From a virus: 64,000 nucleotides of DNA. Shown here piece after piece: positions 7,252 through 43,786 of this stretch. Within the stretch, counting starts at the first letter, position 1; every line of letters begins with the position of its first letter. Under the pieces are notes generated by a model that made no database searches, was not told the origin of the DNA, and was given only the letters and a program-made list of their open reading frames with translations. The stretch spans positions 1-64,000 of IMG/VR virus record IMGVR_UViG_3300028394_000049, one strand, 5' to 3'. The position numbers were made by a program, and so were the translations under genes.

Positions 7252-7797
7252 ATGGCAAATTCATTTACATTTCAGCTTATTAAAGATACAACAGAACATA
7301 CGGTTATTAAAATAACTGGTTCTTTTGATGGAACAGGCCAAGAAAGCAATACCGCAAGAATTCAAGCCAATACACTGTATGGTGCTTTGGATGCAAATAA
7401 TGTGCCGTTGCGTTCCGCTTTAAGCGTTAGTAATACCGCAAAGCCTTACTATGGACTATCACTAAATCGTTTGTGGTACGACTGTGCAGCTGGCGGTGAC
7501 GTTCAGTTATTTTGGAGAGCAAATACTAACGTTCCGTTGATCATCATGAATGGTAACGGTGAATTCGATGGTATGGGCAACTGGACAACAATACCAAACA
7601 ATTCTGCTGGTAATCCAGGTTCTACTGGAGATATTGGTATCGTAACTAGAGGTATGGCCGCAAACGACAGTTATACAATGGTTGTTGAATTGCGTAAAGA
7701 CAATGCTCACTATCAACGTGGTCAGTTTAATGATCCACAAGCATTCAACTACCCACCATATTCTATCACTCCAACACCTGATAATCCAGGTCATTAA
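7252..7797 (+). CDS. Putative virion structural protein in prohead operon
   Basis: This 181-residue, Asn/Gly-rich protein has predicted beta-strands (SFTFQLIKDTTEHTVIKITG at the N-terminus) and a Pro-rich tail (YPPYSITPTPDNPGH). I cannot assign a T4 gene number. A protein in this place between the core genes and gp21 is common in cyanophage-type T4 relatives and is annotated only as structural. Its setting among capsid assembly genes argues for a head or head-decoration role. Confidence 0.6.
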   Translation: MANSFTFQLIKDTTEHTVIKITGSFDGTGQESNTARIQANTLYGALDANNVPLRSALSVSNTAKPYYGLSLNRLWYDCAAGGDVQLFWRANTNVPLIIMNGNGEFDGMGNWTTIPNNSAGNPGSTGDIGIVTRGMAANDSYTMVVELRKDNAHYQRGQFNDPQAFNYPPYSITPTPDNPGH

Positions 7798-7817
7798 AAG
7801 AAAGTAGATGGAAAACA

Positions 7818-8462
7818 ATGAAACTTATTAAAGAAGTTTTCGAAACAATTAACTACCTTGTCGAAGAAAAAGACGGCAAGAAAAATCTATACATTGAAGG
7901 ACCATTTCTACAAACAGAAGTGGTTAACCGTAATAACCGAAAGTATCTCAAAGAAACTATGGCCAAAGAAGTGCAAAGATACACAGAAGAATATATTAAT
8001 AAAAACCGTGCCTTTGGTGAATTAGGACATCCTGATACACCATCAATCAATCTTGATAGAGTCTGTATGATAACTACAGGTTTACGCCAAGAAGGCAATG
8101 ATTGGATAGGCAAAGCAAAAATTCTTGAAACCCCTATGGGTAACATTGTCAAAAGCTTACTTGACGGAGGCGCACAAGTTGGTGTGTCATCCCGTGGATT
8201 AGGTTCTTTGAAAGCCGTTAACGGTATCAATGTTGTTCAGGATGATTTTCGTCTGGCCACAGCGGCAGATATTGTAGCTGATCCTTCTGCACCCAATGCT
8301 TTTGTACAGGGTATTATGGAAGGTAAAGAATGGATGTTGGTAAATGGTGTTTGGACTGAACAGGACTACACTCAAGCTAAGACACAAATTCGCCAAGCTA
8401 CTCAGGGAGAAATCGAAGAAGTGAGTCTACGCATATTCGAAAACTTCCTCAAAAAACTTTAA
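7818..8462 (+). CDS. 21: Prohead maturation protease gp21
   Basis: This 214-residue serine protease cleaves scaffold, core and capsid proteins and itself during head maturation (T4 gp21 is 212 residues). The family motifs are His71 in GELGHPDTP and the active Ser124/Ser125 in VGVSSRGLG. The N-terminal IEGPFLQTEVVNRNNR segment is typical. It cuts after Glu in (Leu/Ile)-x-Glu contexts in T4, which matters for several candidate substrates in this window. It lies between core genes and the gp22 scaffold. Confidence 0.95.
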   Translation: MKLIKEVFETINYLVEEKDGKKNLYIEGPFLQTEVVNRNNRKYLKETMAKEVQRYTEEYINKNRAFGELGHPDTPSINLDRVCMITTGLRQEGNDWIGKAKILETPMGNIVKSLLDGGAQVGVSSRGLGSLKAVNGINVVQDDFRLATAADIVADPSAPNAFVQGIMEGKEWMLVNGVWTEQDYTQAKTQIRQATQGEIEEVSLRIFENFLKKL

Positions 8463-18587: not shown

Positions 18588-19159
18588 GTGATACAATTGT
18601 TTTTAATACGGAAGATACATTAAAAGGTACCAGTTATGCTAAAACTTTTTCTATACCTTTGTTTGATTTGGTAGGAGAAGATAATCCAATTCTCAAAGAA
18701 GTTATGCCAGAATTTGATTTTAAAAATGCTCCTGTAAATCCTATGGAATTCGCATCTTCTTTGGTTGAAACCTGCAAGAAACACAAAGGATATGGATTGT
18801 CCGCCAACCAATGCGGTTTTAGGTATCGAGTATTCGTTATGGGTGCCGAAGATAACTTTGTGGCATTCTTTAATCCAAAAATTACCGCAACATATGATGA
18901 GTCACATATTGTTGAAGGATGCCTATCTTTCCCATTACTAGGACTTAGAATTACCAGACCTGCTGCCGTAGATGTAGAATACCAAGACTTTAATGGAGAA
19001 AATAAAACAGCACATTATACTGGTATATCTGCAAGATGTTTTCTTCATGAGCTTGACCACATGAACGGAATAGTATATACTGAAAGAGTGAAACCACTTG
19101 CGTTGCAAATGGGTATGCAGAAGCGTAACAAACTAATCAAGAAATTGCGTATAAAATAA
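18584..19159 (+). CDS. def: Peptide deformylase
   Basis: This 191-residue metalloenzyme removes the formyl group from nascent N-terminal fMet. All three motifs are present: GYGLSANQ (69-76, variant of GxGLAAxQ), EGCLS (111-115, metal Cys113) and HELDH (155-159, metal His and catalytic Glu156). An N-terminal extension of ~20 residues precedes the usual domain. Deformylases occur in marine T4-like phages, where they can replace host activity late in infection. This phage also encodes an initiator-type tRNA at 34656. Confidence 0.94.
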   Translation: MSDTIVFNTEDTLKGTSYAKTFSIPLFDLVGEDNPILKEVMPEFDFKNAPVNPMEFASSLVETCKKHKGYGLSANQCGFRYRVFVMGAEDNFVAFFNPKITATYDESHIVEGCLSFPLLGLRITRPAAVDVEYQDFNGENKTAHYTGISARCFLHELDHMNGIVYTERVKPLALQMGMQKRNKLIKKLRIK

Positions 19160-20424
19160 TGGCGACACCAGTTGAATTTGTGGACAAACAATGGGTAGAA
19201 TGGCAAGAGTCCAACCCAACAAGTAAGTTTGAACACATAGATAAAGAAGAATTGACCAAGACTCTAATTGGAGACTTGACCAAAGCTTCTCAGATGGATG
19301 TTCGTGAATATACTTTATACCAAAAATGGTGCGAAGTTAAAGAACGATATCCCGTCTTTGAGGCCTCAACTCTTTGGGGTACAGAAGTTCAGATGGTTAA
19401 TCCTGAACAAAAAGAATTGATTGAAAAAGTCAAATCTAATTTTTGGATGCCAGAATCACCTGACGATTTTGAAAAATTAAAACCTGTGATGAAATTATCA
19501 AATGGTCCATTGGCAGAAACTTGGAATGCCATACGTACCTTTTCATCCACAATGAAAAACAATTCTAACATTGGTCGTAATCTATTTTATACGGTTACTG
19601 ATGATGTGACAGGTAAATATCTTGGTGTTATTTGTATATCATCAGATTTTTTAGACTTAACTCCAAGAGACAAGGCCATCGGTTGGTCAAGAGAAGTTAA
19701 GACACAACAAGGCATGATTAATCACACCGCAATTGGTTCTACTATCGTGCCCCTACAACCTTTGGGGTTTAATTATATGGGCGGTAAATTACTTGCCTTG
19801 TTGTGCCTTTCTGATACCGTCCAAAAAGACTGGAAAGAACGATATGACGATGTTCTAGTCGGAGTGACTACCACATCACTTTATGGTGCTACGAAGGCTG
19901 GAGGCCTATCCCAATACGATGGACTCGAACATTGGAATAAAATGGGTTTTAGTTCAGGTTCGGTTGCGTTTGAACCATCCAGAAAAACCATGAATATGGT
20001 ATTTGATTGGATTAAAGAAAATCATACTCGTAAATATTTTGAATGGTGGGAAGCCAAAAATCAAAATGGTTTACCACTTAAACGTGACCATAAAAATAGA
20101 TCATTGAACTTTGCCTACCCAAAATTAGGTATCGATAAAAAATTAATTCGTACCGAACATCAACGTGGTATCTATTTTAGTCCTCTCTATAATAATACCA
20201 ATGAATTTCTCCGTAAGGAGATTACCGATTCTGAACTGGTAAAATCGTTTGATACCAGTGAAGAAGCCCTTGCCAATATTTGGAAAACCAAGTATGCTAA
20301 GGGTCGAATTAGGCAATTACAGAAAAAGAATAATGTTTCTTACGATTCTCTTTTCTATGATGACCTGATTTATTTGTCTTGGGAAGAAACCAAGGCAAAA
20401 TATCTACCACAAGTTGGTAGATAA
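19159..20424 (+). CDS. DruA-like DUF4338 protein 1
   Basis: This 421-residue protein contains the DUF4338 core: KYLGVICISSDFLDLTPRDKAIGW, then PLQPLGFNYMGGKLLALLCLSD and VTTTSLYG...SQYDG. The family includes DruA of the Druantia defence system, but phage members are free-standing and of unknown function. It is one of two in this window; the other at 42680 keeps the GFNY-GGKLLA and TTSLYG motifs. N- and C-terminal regions are phage-specific. It overlaps the deformylase stop by one base. Confidence 0.7.
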   Translation: MATPVEFVDKQWVEWQESNPTSKFEHIDKEELTKTLIGDLTKASQMDVREYTLYQKWCEVKERYPVFEASTLWGTEVQMVNPEQKELIEKVKSNFWMPESPDDFEKLKPVMKLSNGPLAETWNAIRTFSSTMKNNSNIGRNLFYTVTDDVTGKYLGVICISSDFLDLTPRDKAIGWSREVKTQQGMINHTAIGSTIVPLQPLGFNYMGGKLLALLCLSDTVQKDWKERYDDVLVGVTTTSLYGATKAGGLSQYDGLEHWNKMGFSSGSVAFEPSRKTMNMVFDWIKENHTRKYFEWWEAKNQNGLPLKRDHKNRSLNFAYPKLGIDKKLIRTEHQRGIYFSPLYNNTNEFLRKEITDSELVKSFDTSEEALANIWKTKYAKGRIRQLQKKNNVSYDSLFYDDLIYLSWEETKAKYLPQVGR

Positions 20425-31895: not shown

Positions 31896-31972
31896 GTGGG
31901 TGTGCAGCTGAATGGTTAGGCACCGGATTGCAAATCCGTATTATGCAGGTTCGAGTCCTGTCACCCACTCCA
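31896..31972 (+). tRNA. tRNA-Cys(GCA)
   Basis: Acceptor GTGGGTG/CACCCAC, discriminator T and encoded CCA. Loop TTGCAAA gives GCA. Confidence 0.95.
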
Positions 31973-32169: not shown

Positions 32170-32380
32170 TATTAAAGTTTATTGCGTTGATAAGTCCATT
32201 AGGGGATTGTTCAAGATAACGGGACGGCGGTCACCGGTCTATGAACACTCATGATAGCCGTTACGAAGGTGATGGGTTGCTTGTTTGTAATGACCGCATA
32301 CAGCGCAGGATCGCAGCCTGTGAAAAAGAAGTATGCAAGGTTCGCAATAAATTTTAATATGGTACATAGAAAAAAATAAA
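32170..32380 (+). other. tRNA-free gap with possible RNA structure
   Basis: These 211 bases between tRNA-Glu and tRNA-Leu hold no convincing ORF or tRNA. Two perfect stems can be drawn, TAACGG/CCGTTA (32217, 32258) and GCGGTCA/TGACCGC (32227, 32291), which cross each other; such matches are near chance level in this length. A small RNA is possible but unproven. Confidence 0.3.
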
Positions 32381-32612: not shown

Positions 32613-32663
32613 GGTCGAGCGGAGAACATTAAATGGAGACGACCGCTCCAGCCATTCAATGTT
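32613..32663 (+). ncRNA. Candidate structured RNA between tRNA-Leu and tRNA-Asp
   Basis: A 12-base arm at 32625-32636 pairs with 32652-32663 at 11 of 12 positions. A second stem, GAGCGG (32617-32622) with CCGCTC (32643-32648), crosses it, giving an H-type pseudoknot order; alternatively GGTCG/CGACC (32613, 32640) forms. The element ends two bases before tRNA-Asp. No expression evidence is available. Confidence 0.45.
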
Positions 32664-33401: not shown

Positions 33402-33475
33402 GCGGGGTTAGTTTAATGGTAAAACTGTAGATTTCCAATCTTCCGTTGAGAGTTCGATTCTCTCACTCCGCTCCA
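33402..33475 (+). tRNA. tRNA-Gly(TCC)
   Basis: Acceptor GCGGGGT/ACTCCGC, discriminator T and encoded CCA. Loop TTTCCAA gives TCC. One mismatch lies in the anticodon stem. Confidence 0.92.
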
Positions 33476-34278: not shown

Positions 34279-34307
34279 TTGACAAAGCGATATAAGTATA
34301 GTAGAAT
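34279..34307 (+). promoter_or_regulatory. Sigma70-like promoter P3 for the tRNA-like RNA
   Basis: TTGACA (34279-34284), 17 bases and TAGAAT (34302-34307). The expected start (~34314) is within ~3 bases of the tRNA-like element at 34317. TATAAATG at 34310 also resembles a late promoter. Confidence 0.82.
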
Positions 34308-34316
34308 GATATAAAT

Positions 34317-34383
34317 GCGGTGTGTAATAGTACGGCGTAGGATTCCCTCTTACGTTACCTGAGCAAAGCAGAACACCGCTCCA
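34317..34383 (+). ncRNA. 67-nt tRNA-like RNA with terminal CCA
   Basis: A closing stem GCGGTGT/ACACCGC (34317-34323 and 34373-34379) is followed by T and CCA, exactly like a tRNA acceptor. Inside is an 8-bp hairpin (with G-T pairs) GGCGTAGG/CTTACGTT around a 7-base loop ATTCCCT, and minimal hairpins GTA/TAC and CTG/CAG in the places of the D- and T-arms. It lacks a GTTCRANNC T-loop and is ~8 bases shorter than the tRNAs around it. If decoded, the loop would give TCC (Gly). Confidence 0.6.
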
Positions 34384-34404: not shown

Positions 34405-34650
34405 ATGAATTTAAAACCAACTGCATCAAACGTATATATTACCAGAATCGCTTCAGAGAAGCAAACATCTTCTGGTATTATTTTAAAAAGTTCCGAAGAG
34501 CCAGATAAAGCAAGAGTCGAATCTATCGGCAAAGATGTAACCGACCTTTCTATCGGCGATATCATTCTTGTTAATTGGAACAAAGCAATCAAAATTGAAA
34601 AAGAATCATACATCATCCCATCAGAAGATGTGGTTTTGGTGTTCGAATAA
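34405..34650 (+). CDS. GroES-like co-chaperonin (gp31 analogue)
   Basis: This 81-residue protein matches GroES-type sequence: LKPTASNVYITRIASEKQTS, then SGIILKSSEEPDKARVESIG, GDIILVNWNKA and SYIIPSEDVVLVFE. The mobile loop corresponds to the KQTSSGIIL stretch, as in GroES. T4 gp31 (111 residues) replaces GroES to fold gp23, so this is its likely analogue. It sits between the tRNA-like RNA and the initiator tRNA. Confidence 0.85.
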   Translation: MNLKPTASNVYITRIASEKQTSSGIILKSSEEPDKARVESIGKDVTDLSIGDIILVNWNKAIKIEKESYIIPSEDVVLVFE

Positions 34651-41338: not shown

Positions 41339-42683
41339 AGATTATCTCAGAAAAGTATTACCATTTTTAAAACCGGAATATTTTACCTCGAATACTGAAA
41401 AAGTTTTATTTGATGAAATTACATCATTCACACAGACTTACAATAACACACCAACGATTGAAGCAGTTGCATTGGCCGTCAAAGAAAGGCGCAATCTCAC
41501 AGATGACGAAGTGGAAAAGTGTTCGTCTTATCTTAAAGAAATTGAATCTACTAAAAGCGAAGAATCCAAAATTCAATGGCTTGTTGATAAAACCGAACAA
41601 TTTTGCCAAGAGAAAGCCATATACAATGCAGTATTGGGGTCTATTTCTATTCTCGATGGAAAAGACAAGACCCACGAAAAAGGTCAGATTCCCAAGATAT
41701 TATCGGACGCCTTGGCGGTAAGTTTCGATAACTCGGTTGGTCACGATTATTTGGAGAATTCAGATGAGCGTTACGAATTCTACCACCGAAAAGAAGAACG
41801 TATTCCTTTTGATCTGGAATACTTCAACAAAATCACAAAAGGCGGCCTGCCTGCCAAGACACTCAATATCGCTCTAGCGGGTACTGGTGTCGGTAAATCA
41901 TTGTTCATGTGTCACGTTGCTTCGTCTTGCATGGTACAAGGTAAAAACGTATTGTACATCACACTTGAAATGGCAGAAGAAAAAATTGCTGAACGTATTG
42001 ATGCAAATTTATTAAACGTGACGATTGATGATTTGATGCAACTACCTAAAGACATGTATGACAAGAAAGTTGCTCGGGTCCGTGAAAAGACTACAGGTAA
42101 ACTTATCATCAAAGAATATCCAACCGCATCAGCTTCAACAATTCATTTTAGGACATTATTAAATGAACTTAATCTTAAGCGCTCTTTCGTTCCTGATATT
42201 ATCTTTGTGGATTATCTTAATATATGTTGTAGTTCTCGGATTAAGGCTGGTGCGAATATTAACTCATACACATACGTTAAGTCCATCGCAGAAGAGCTTC
42301 GAGGCCTTGCCGTTGAACATAATGTTCCTATTGTATCTGCGACTCAAACTACCAGAAGCGGATTTACATCGTCTGATCCGGGCTTGGAAGATACGAGTGA
42401 ATCGTTCGGGTTACCTGCTACCGCCGACCTGATGTTTGCTTTGATTTCTTCCGAAGAATTGGAAGAACTTGGCCAACTTATGGTCAAACAATTGAAAAAT
42501 CGTTACAATGATCCAACATATTACAAAAGATTCACGGTTGGTATTGACAGGTCTAAAATGAAGTTGTATGATATCGAACAGGCTGCTCAAATTGGAATTG
42601 CAGATGCTGGCCACGATAAGCCAATAAACACATTTGGTGACCGTGAAAGACAACCTAAAAAGTTTAGTGGATTTAAAGTATGA
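41295..42683 (+). CDS. 41: Replicative DNA helicase gp41 (DnaB-like)
   Basis: This 462-residue hexameric 5'-3' helicase (T4 gp41 is 475) moves on the lagging strand with the primase gp61. Walker A is AGTGVGKSLF (~195-204), followed by YITLEMAEEKIAERIDANLL, Walker B IIFVDYLNI and ESFGLPATADLMFALI, all close to T4 gp41. The ATG at 41295 gives MKLEQTILKNLFYNEDYL, comparable to the T4 start; the TTG 18 bases upstream is less likely. Confidence 0.96.
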   Translation: MKLEQTILKNLFYNEDYLRKVLPFLKPEYFTSNTEKVLFDEITSFTQTYNNTPTIEAVALAVKERRNLTDDEVEKCSSYLKEIESTKSEESKIQWLVDKTEQFCQEKAIYNAVLGSISILDGKDKTHEKGQIPKILSDALAVSFDNSVGHDYLENSDERYEFYHRKEERIPFDLEYFNKITKGGLPAKTLNIALAGTGVGKSLFMCHVASSCMVQGKNVLYITLEMAEEKIAERIDANLLNVTIDDLMQLPKDMYDKKVARVREKTTGKLIIKEYPTASASTIHFRTLLNELNLKRSFVPDIIFVDYLNICCSSRIKAGANINSYTYVKSIAEELRGLAVEHNVPIVSATQTTRSGFTSSDPGLEDTSESFGLPATADLMFALISSEELEELGQLMVKQLKNRYNDPTYYKRFTVGIDRSKMKLYDIEQAAQIGIADAGHDKPINTFGDRERQPKKFSGFKV

Positions 42684-43786
42684 CGTTGACCTTTGAAGAT
42701 GCAGTACATTGTGCCAAAGTATTCGAAGATTATTTTGGGAATTTTGATCGCATCGATGAGTACATGAGAGATCAGAAATTAAATTCTCTGGCCGAACTTC
42801 CATCCAATCCTTTATTTCCAATTGAAGATGAATTATTTCAAAACTTTACGATGCATCCAAAAGATATGGATTTTGAAGTACTTGAAATAGATAATGAAAC
42901 ATGGACTAATCTACTGAACATTACCTCATCACACGTAAACATTCCACCAGTTGGTCGTAATGTCAAGTTGGCCGTGCGTGAGAAGAATACAGGAAAGTAC
43001 GTAGGATTCATCCGACTTGGTTCACCAGTCATCAACTGTAAACCCCGTAATGACATGCTTGGACAAGTGTTTACACAAAATCCTGACTGGGGTAAACGAT
43101 TCAACGACTCTGCAATGATGGGTTTTGTTATTGTACCGGCACAACCATTTGGTTATAATTATCTTGGTGGTAAACTTCTAGCTGCAATCTGTACATCACA
43201 TGAAGTCCGTCAAATCGTCAACAAGAAATACGGAATGAATTTGTGTCTTTTTGAGACTACTAGTTTATATGGTAGTTCAAAAACAGTATCACAATATGAT
43301 GGTATGAAACCCTATATCAGATATAAAGGTCTTACCGATTCCGATTTTTTACCCATGATGCACGGCAAACCATATTCTGATTTACGTGACTTTGTGGAAA
43401 GTAAAGTTGGTAAACTTGTCGATGAAGATGCGTCTAGTAAGAAACTAAAAATCTCTATGAAGATTATATCACTCACTAAAGCAGCACTTAAAGGTACATC
43501 TGAGGGCGGCACATTCCAAGCAACGATTGAGAAGGCTAAGGGGTTGACAGAACAGAAAAGATATTATATAAGCGACTATGGTTTTAAGAACATGGTTGAT
43601 TATGTAAACTGTAAGACGGACGTACTTGTTCCTGGTGAAAACTATGAAAAACATAAAATGGTAAACTTGATTGAATGGTGGCGAAATAAAGCTTGCAATC
43701 GGTATGAAACACTATACAATGAAAACAGGTTAAGAAACGAACTTGAAATCTGGACATCAGGAAAAGATATTCAGATTATCAGATAA
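42680..43786 (+). CDS. DruA-like DUF4338 protein 2
   Basis: This 368-residue protein shares with the 19159 protein the segments KYVGFIRLGSP, PAQPFGYNYLGGKLLAAICTS and ETTSLYGSSKTVSQYDG, the DUF4338/DruA core. N- and C-terminal regions differ, so the pair is ancient or separately acquired. It overlaps gp41 by four bases. Its location in the replication unit argues for DNA-related action, which is inference. Confidence 0.7.
   Translation: MTLTFEDAVHCAKVFEDYFGNFDRIDEYMRDQKLNSLAELPSNPLFPIEDELFQNFTMHPKDMDFEVLEIDNETWTNLLNITSSHVNIPPVGRNVKLAVREKNTGKYVGFIRLGSPVINCKPRNDMLGQVFTQNPDWGKRFNDSAMMGFVIVPAQPFGYNYLGGKLLAAICTSHEVRQIVNKKYGMNLCLFETTSLYGSSKTVSQYDGMKPYIRYKGLTDSDFLPMMHGKPYSDLRDFVESKVGKLVDEDASSKKLKISMKIISLTKAALKGTSEGGTFQATIEKAKGLTEQKRYYISDYGFKNMVDYVNCKTDVLVPGENYEKHKMVNLIEWWRNKACNRYETLYNENRLRNELEIWTSGKDIQIIR

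Follow-up and report, generated by a model that had tools for sequence, protein, structure and literature searches.

A tRNA-Gly-like RNA family in freshwater and marine T4-like phages retains glycine identity bases and lacks decoding features

Introduction

The 64,000 nt of viral DNA analyzed here (the window) contain, at positions 34317-34383 of the plus strand, a 67-nt element that stands after a run of tRNA genes and before a gene for a GroES-like co-chaperonin (34405-34650, plus strand; PHROG GroES, E 1.7e-12). The element closes like a tRNA and encodes CCA, and the question it raises is what such an RNA is for. A first-pass annotation, whose coordinates and sequence for the element agree with ours, had left three readings side by side, namely a degenerate tRNA-Gly(TCC), a decoy for tRNA enzymes and a new regulatory RNA. 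Here we describe the fold, the promoter, the relatives and the gene neighborhood of this element, and weigh the roles that it could have.

Results

The 5' half of the element reads GCGGTGT GTA ATAG TAC G GCGTAGGA TTCCC, and it continues after the TTCCC as TCTTACGT TA CCTG AGCAAAG CAGA ACACCGC T CCA. The minimum-energy fold of the 67 nt is exactly a cloverleaf (-21.3 kcal/mol, z -2.2, with 6 of 200 shuffles folding as well), in which the 5' strand of the acceptor stem, GCGGTGT (34317-34323), pairs with 34373-34379, and the 3' strand continues into U73 and CCA (34373-34383). The D-like hairpin, GTA-ATAG-TAC (34324-34333), is without G18G19. In the anticodon-like hairpin (34335-34355), an 8-bp stem carries a 5-nt loop, TTCCC (34343-34347), which amounts to a 7-nt loop with positions 32-38 paired, and the equivalents of C35-C36 lie at 34345-34346. 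The T-like hairpin, CCTG-AGCAAAG-CAGA (34358-34372), has four pairs in most relatives and three in the window, where the first pair is a mismatched C.A (U-A, C-G, A-U, U-G or G-U in relatives); its loop, AGCAWAG, is not a T-loop, as the first-pass annotation had recognized in reporting that the T-arm consensus is missing. The fold energy alone is modest support for the element, and the comparative evidence presented below is decisive.

A consensus scan placed a sigma70-type promoter on the plus strand at 34279-34307, with TTGACA at 34279-34284, a 17-nt spacer and TAGAAT at 34302-34307, matching 11 of 12 consensus positions and ending about ten bases 5' of the element; transcription would be expected to start at about 34314, 2-3 nt 5' of the element. 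The arrangement recurs in relatives: of the 27 close ones that have no upstream tRNA within 60 nt, 16 carry a promoter scoring 9 or more out of 12, versus 6.6% in shuffles, and in 12 of the same 27 the -10 box ends exactly 8-9 nt 5' of the RNA. The earlier proposal of a tRNA-like element with its own promoter stands. The gene setting of the RNA varies: some copies lie within tRNA clusters and others by themselves, with a promoter and a terminator of their own; in one record (G015) it lies away from tRNAs, with the promoter present and a terminator-like hairpin behind.

Annotation programs pass over the element. The window holds 20 tRNA genes according to ARAGORN and 21 according to Rfam, each count taking in one tRNA-Met downstream of GroES, and ARAGORN did not call the element among them. 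No Rfam family matches it, a permissive scan yielded nothing tRNA-like, and one Rfam match (S774, 17.7 bits against a threshold of 48) was rejected as chance; relatives in 10 further loci were not found by Rfam either. Rfam misses the family, and ARAGORN does so as a rule, the exception being a relative in the phage HTVC008M, which it calls tRNA-Gly(acc). Three other stretches of the same region were noted in passing. A tRNA-Cys(GCA) at 31896-31972, missed by ARAGORN, scores 42.8 bits with Rfam and brings the recognizable tRNA genes of the window to 21. A multi-branched fold that lacks CCA and is closed by a GCGGTCA...TGACCGC stem (32222-32304) lies in the 213 nt that separate tRNA-Glu from tRNA-Leu; its energy is near that of shuffles (z -1.5), and it could be another small RNA or nothing at all. 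A short GCGG...CCGCTCCA stretch at 32619-32650, from which most of the RNA is absent, is a possible remnant of another tRNA-Gly-like gene.

The first relatives, one close copy and several others, surfaced among loci fetched with the neighboring GroES and RNase H-like genes. A scan pattern that fixed only ATAG.AC, GAGCA.AGC.G and CCA then matched 116 IMG/VR stretches with 54 distinct sequences, all of which start with GCGG and end with CCGCTCCA; GCGG/CCGC and U73, neither fixed by the pattern, were present wherever a match closed with a proper stem. Among 47 distinct homologues that align without gaps, 96.7% of the cells are compatible with cloverleaf pairing, a value that falls to 32-36% when the structure is slid by one column, and double changes occur in 11 of the 22 pairs, with 113 double-changed cells versus a shuffled mean of 33 and none of 500 shuffles as high. 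RNAalifold independently gives the same cloverleaf. Compensatory changes were found in pairs 5 and 6 of the acceptor stem, the fifth being U-A in 38 of the 47 homologues, as it is in the window; the D-like hairpin keeps an invariant ATAG loop over a third pair that is A-U in 31 sequences and G-C in 16; and the anticodon-like hairpin has double changes in seven of its eight pairs, with 99.7% of cells paired. The first-pass annotation had described a 7-bp closing stem and had named its lack of conservation in homologues as the observation that would count against the element. The comparison was made and the stem is conserved, in six of its pairs, because the seventh is formed in only 19 of the 47 homologues. 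The element is a conserved structured RNA, and we regard it as practically certain that it represents a real structured RNA family.

Covariance models extended this set. A model built from the close family (R1, with which the element scores 87.1 bits) was used to search related phages, as the annotation had proposed, and brought up divergent relatives adjoining tRNA-Gly. With a broader family model (R2), the element scores 62.0 bits and the second-best match in the window is the canonical tRNA-Gly(TCC) at 33402-33475 on the plus strand (called by ARAGORN), with 34.5 bits; these scores are consistent with descent of the element from tRNA-Gly, of which this gene is the likely kind of ancestor. 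The relationship to tRNA-Gly suggested at first holds. A second pattern, which looked for a GCGG...CCGCTCCA element of 63-71 nt directly after a CGCTCCA end, matched at least 120 stretches, and a third pattern 43 more. Some large GC-rich matches of the second pattern (e.g. L218, L240 and L277) lie inside coding sequence and were left out of the counts as chance. With such non-structured coding matches removed, the freshwater family comprises at least 121 distinct members in several subfamilies, with the loop contexts TTCCC, TACCC, GTCCA and CTCCCC; in many contigs two different members stand in tandem, often a CCC-type member beside one whose loop is GTCCA. When the first loci were scanned without bias for non-canonical cloverleaves, whatever their acceptor sequence, no other amino-acid type with a minimal D arm appeared, and the remainder were mostly tRNA genes overlooked by ARAGORN. 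Three single cloverleaves of non-canonical form (L064 at 3035, L117 at 226 and L070 at 2997), which ARAGORN overlooks as well, carry Phe-, Thr- and Asp-type anticodons, odd T-loops, such as AGCGTAA, and fuller D arms. BLAST searches of isolated phages with three element types returned either nothing or chance matches of 18-21 nt; the single GTDB pattern match (Marinomonas, L209) is a chance one inside a glyoxalase-like ORF, and an R2 match in cyanophage S-SCSM2R (L596) is a canonical tRNA-Gly, not a family member.

Marine relatives were found with a separate pattern, which matched 99 stretches with 33 distinct sequences, extensive compensatory changes among them, and included the cultured SAR11 phages HTVC008M and Mosig. 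The pattern fixed ACCAA- or TCCAA-compatible loop positions and U73, so that neither is independent evidence in the marine set; 32 of the 33 sequences start with GCGG, which was not fixed. HTVC008M and Mosig each have a tRNA-Gly-like RNA of 74 nt that is divergent and has an ACC loop, at 91140-91213 of HTVC008M, between the CobS and S21 genes, where it is unannotated, and at 7779-7852 of Mosig. With R2 they score 25-27 bits, which does not exceed what canonical tRNA-Gly reaches, and the assignment therefore rests on loops, covariation and neighborhood. The Mosig RNA is overlapped by the predicted ORF Mosig_000011 (MT647606, 7774-7869), which is probably not a protein gene. The family is large and unnamed, occurs in freshwater and marine T4-like phages and in hundreds of aquatic phage contigs, and appears to be unannotated; no usable earlier report of this RNA turned up in the literature that was searched.

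Bacterial glycine identity elements are G1-C72, C2-G71, U73, C35 and C36 (PMC9976931), and the window element carries all of them. G1-C72, C2-G71, G4-C69 and U73 are invariant in the close family, as is the CC of the loop among the close relatives, and C35-C36, fixed by none of the three freshwater scan patterns, is present in all 121 distinct freshwater members among the matches listed (117 by automatic parse and 4 by eye). The features of a decoding tRNA have a different fate. The D-loop GG is found in 2 of the 121 members among the matches listed versus 158 of 158 distinct canonical tRNA-Gly of the same contigs. At least 153 of these 158 have a T-loop TTC, and the T-loops of the family are mostly TGNRAAT or AGCAWAG instead of UUCRANY; U55 is absent among the matches listed except in four members with TTTAAC loops, and U54 is retained in many subfamilies other than that of the window. 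Position 33 is U in the window and G or C in several subfamilies (G in the GTCCA ones), positions 32-38 of the anticodon-like loop pair, position 37 varies, and position 34 is often A, which gives the anticodon ACC of a tRNA-Gly described as universally missing (PMC8007984). Sequence conservation centers on the bases read by bacterial glycyl-tRNA synthetase (GlyRS), and the elbow and decoding features are gone. Because the identity bases are kept and the D-loop GG, T-loop and U33 features are lost, we infer selection for GlyRS recognition and release from decoding, and on this pattern of bases the RNA is likely to be recognized by GlyRS.

Two places recur among the surroundings of the RNA. GroES lies at most 700 nt downstream of about 44 distinct family members, that of the window included, and about 23 distinct members stand between a gene of the DruA family and one for a CobT-like peptidase. 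The same RNA subfamily occurs at both places, which argues for action in trans. Five loci (L221, L234, L239, L267 and L319) hold a pair of the RNAs within a conserved run of peptide deformylase, DruA, RNA, CobT-like peptidase and CobS-like ATPase. The deformylase-DruA-CobT-CobS run recurs in SAR11 phages with the RNA absent at that spot; inspection of the DruA-CobT gaps in HTVC008M and Mosig showed no such RNA there, and in both phages it lies further along.

The window encodes two proteins of the DruA/DUF4338 family (PF14236), a family described in the literature as of unknown function: paralogue 1, the candidate partner (19159-20424, plus strand, 79.1 bits, with a weak GNAT-fold match), whose orthologues in other lineages immediately precede the RNA on its 5' side, and paralogue 2 (42680-43786, plus strand, 33.0 bits). 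When seven RNA-bearing records were compared with six others, six gene clusters were present in all seven and in none of the six, two of them DruA/DUF4338. DruA was present in all 15 records in which the RNA had first been recognized. Of 15 records selected by DruA only, 14 have the RNA and the other is a 34-kb fragment, and 17 T4-like records without DruA have no family member either. One record of the first negative set (G003) turned out not to be RNA-free, a divergent 63-nt member having been found behind its DruA gene. DruA also occurs in further RNA-bearing contigs, in marine RNA-bearing records of at least 46 kb and, as relatives of paralogue 1, in the Pelagibacter phages Mosig and HTVC008M, and is absent from several smaller fragments. 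Many of the records compared are fragments, in which absence is weak evidence. No RNA of this family was detected in cyanophages that carry DruA relatives. Since other genes of the clade share its distribution and the cyanophage DruA relatives come without the RNA, the link between DruA and the RNA is a lead only, and could be a clade effect. The structure model of DruA has a mean pLDDT of 79.9, and all its top PDB fold matches are GNAT or MYST acetyltransferases, albeit weak ones (best E 0.026), while a PDB sequence search with DruA returned nothing convincing; the model of paralogue 2 is poor (mean pLDDT 60.9).

Discussion

The reading that we tentatively favor, and to which we give a little under an even chance, is that the element is a dedicated non-decoding mimic of tRNA-Gly that would act in trans as a glycine carrier off the ribosome. 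The RNA would derive from a phage tRNA-Gly and be charged with glycine by host GlyRS, EF-Tu and the ribosome would use it poorly, and the glycyl-RNA would serve in trans outside translation. It would most likely carry its glycine to an aminoacyl- or acyl-transferase, much as a tRNA-Gly of staphylococci supplies the synthesis of the cell wall. Among candidate enzymes we place first the phage DruA/DUF4338 protein, with its predicted GNAT-like fold, whose substrate could be DNA, protein or lipid; that DruA is the user of the glycyl-RNA is doubtful, perhaps a chance of one in four or five. It is more speculative still that SAR11-type and related freshwater T4-like phages share a glycyl-carrier system in which the mimic, often in two versions, would be charged by GlyRS and DruA would glycylate phage DNA or a host protein. 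Such a system would be a viral, ribosome-independent use of aminoacyl-tRNA and the first biochemical role for a DUF4338 protein. If the RNA is charged, it would represent a virus-encoded aminoacyl-RNA for use outside translation. The family may also give a first lead on DruA/DUF4338. Rfam does not contain it, tRNA finders pass over it, HTVC008M carries it without annotation and in Mosig a predicted protein gene overlaps it; its presence in cultured Pelagibacter phages opens its charging, expression and partner to experiment.

A decoy or sponge would need most of the same conserved bases as a carrier. It would occupy GlyRS or, more likely, a host defense toxin that attacks tRNA-Gly, such as an acetyltransferase of the TacT kind, which acts on glycyl-tRNA, or a toxSAS enzyme, which acts on the CCA end, and would thereby spare phage and host tRNA-Gly. 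Both U73 and G71, which TacT reads on glycyl-tRNA-Gly (PMC9976931), are kept in the RNA, the D/T elbow may be dispensable for binding by such toxins, and these phages carry large tRNA sets and, in many contigs, two different tandem mimics. FaRel2 reads G1-C72, C2-G71, G4-C69 and a purine at position 5 (PMC11559606); the first three are invariant here, but the fifth pair, usually U-A, breaks the purine rule, so that FaRel2-type toxSAS enzymes do not fit and TacT-type toxins do. A decoy of the acceptor end, however, has no need of C35-C36 unless, as with TacT, it must be charged, and an RNA present throughout a phage group points to an opponent that is constant and not specific to one host. We consider a decoy unlikely, if worth serious attention, and prefer the carrier given the precedent of the Staphylococcus aureus tRNA-Gly with altered D and T loops, which is reported (PMC4052509, PMC8007984) to be a substrate of GlyRS and a poor ligand of EF-Tu and to supply glycine for pentaglycine synthesis. 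A decoy would in turn point to a widespread defense aimed at tRNA-Gly.

The remaining explanations are less probable. Cloverleaf topology, CCA and an NCC anticodon are what a minimal working elongator tRNA-Gly, decoding GGN in the manner of armless mitochondrial tRNAs, would keep, and ARAGORN calls the HTVC008M relative a tRNA-Gly; but tRNA-Gly(TCC) and tRNA-Gly(GCC) are already among the tRNAs of the window, the GTCCA subfamilies have G33, position 34 is often A and position 37 varies, D-loop GG and U55/C56 are lost, and the reduced D arm was seen with no other amino-acid type in the unbiased scan of the same loci, all of which makes an elongator improbable. Slightly less probable again is a base-pairing sRNA, for which the tRNA shape would be just a stabilizer of an exposed, C-rich YWCCC loop that binds G-rich mRNA sites such as Shine-Dalgarno sequences, although the putative promoter of its own in many phages would suit it: only C35-C36 are kept family-wide while the loop context changes, and such an sRNA has no need of CCA and U73. 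Of the new regulatory RNA suggested at first, the base-pairing kind is thus less likely than a substrate of tRNA enzymes, because conservation extends to C35-C36 and the acceptor end but not to base 37 or the letters of the stems. The proximity of GroES to so many members could suggest a cis-acting leader of that gene, which we hold to be very improbable, given that the same subfamily stands also between DruA and the CobT-like gene or with a terminator-like hairpin behind, and that in the GroES-proximal relatives L012 and L346 a canonical tRNA lies between the RNA and the gene. Finally, the loss of tRNA consensus features by an RNA that adjoins tRNA-Gly in many contigs is what a decaying pseudogene would display, but the covariation contradicts this reading, with double changes that preserve pairing at a level reached by none of the shuffles, and the spacing of the promoter is conserved; decay, if that is what the word "degenerate" meant in the first-pass annotation, is hardly credible in the face of strong selection across hundreds of contigs.

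Among known systems, T4 encodes in its tRNA cluster the stable RNAs C and D, small stable RNAs that are not tRNAs. They resemble the element as small RNAs of a phage tRNA cluster, and no Rfam family of that kind matched it. With canonical tRNA (RF00005) the element shares the cloverleaf, a 7-nt T-like loop, CCA and the glycine identity bases; it differs in falling below the Rfam gathering score, in having neither D-loop GG nor a UUC T-loop, and in an 8-bp anticodon stem, with U33 and purine 37 not kept in the family. Phage tRNAs that escape tRNA-targeting defenses (PMC11559606) are likewise phage RNAs that could interact with tRNA-targeting toxins, but those are working isoacceptors and the RNAs described here appear unable to decode. 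The GNAT-like fold predicted, on a weak match, for DruA recalls phage Mu Mom and other DNA modifiers of the GNAT family (PMC7824862), and one cyanophage DruA relative is annotated as "methylcarbamoylase mom"; no sequence or strong fold match links DruA to Mom, and a literature search for Mom with glycyl-tRNA gave nothing usable. The closest parallel is the non-proteinogenic tRNA-Gly of S. aureus (Giannouli et al. 2009, as cited in PMC4052509 and PMC8007984), for which those citing passages give a UCC anticodon, altered D and T loops and a use of glycine off the ribosome. The staphylococcal RNAs are bacterial and come from recognizable tRNA genes, whereas ours are phage-encoded, mostly of 63-70 nt and with a 3-bp D-like hairpin. 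A dedicated transferase of the FemABX type would be expected to use a non-proteinogenic tRNA-Gly, and a FemAB-like enzyme (PF13480), sought in 12 phage records, was not found. What the two have in common, as far as those passages describe the staphylococcal RNA, is the sequence part of the likeness, the D-loop GG being lost and the T arm altered in the phage RNAs too, which would probably also be charged with glycine.
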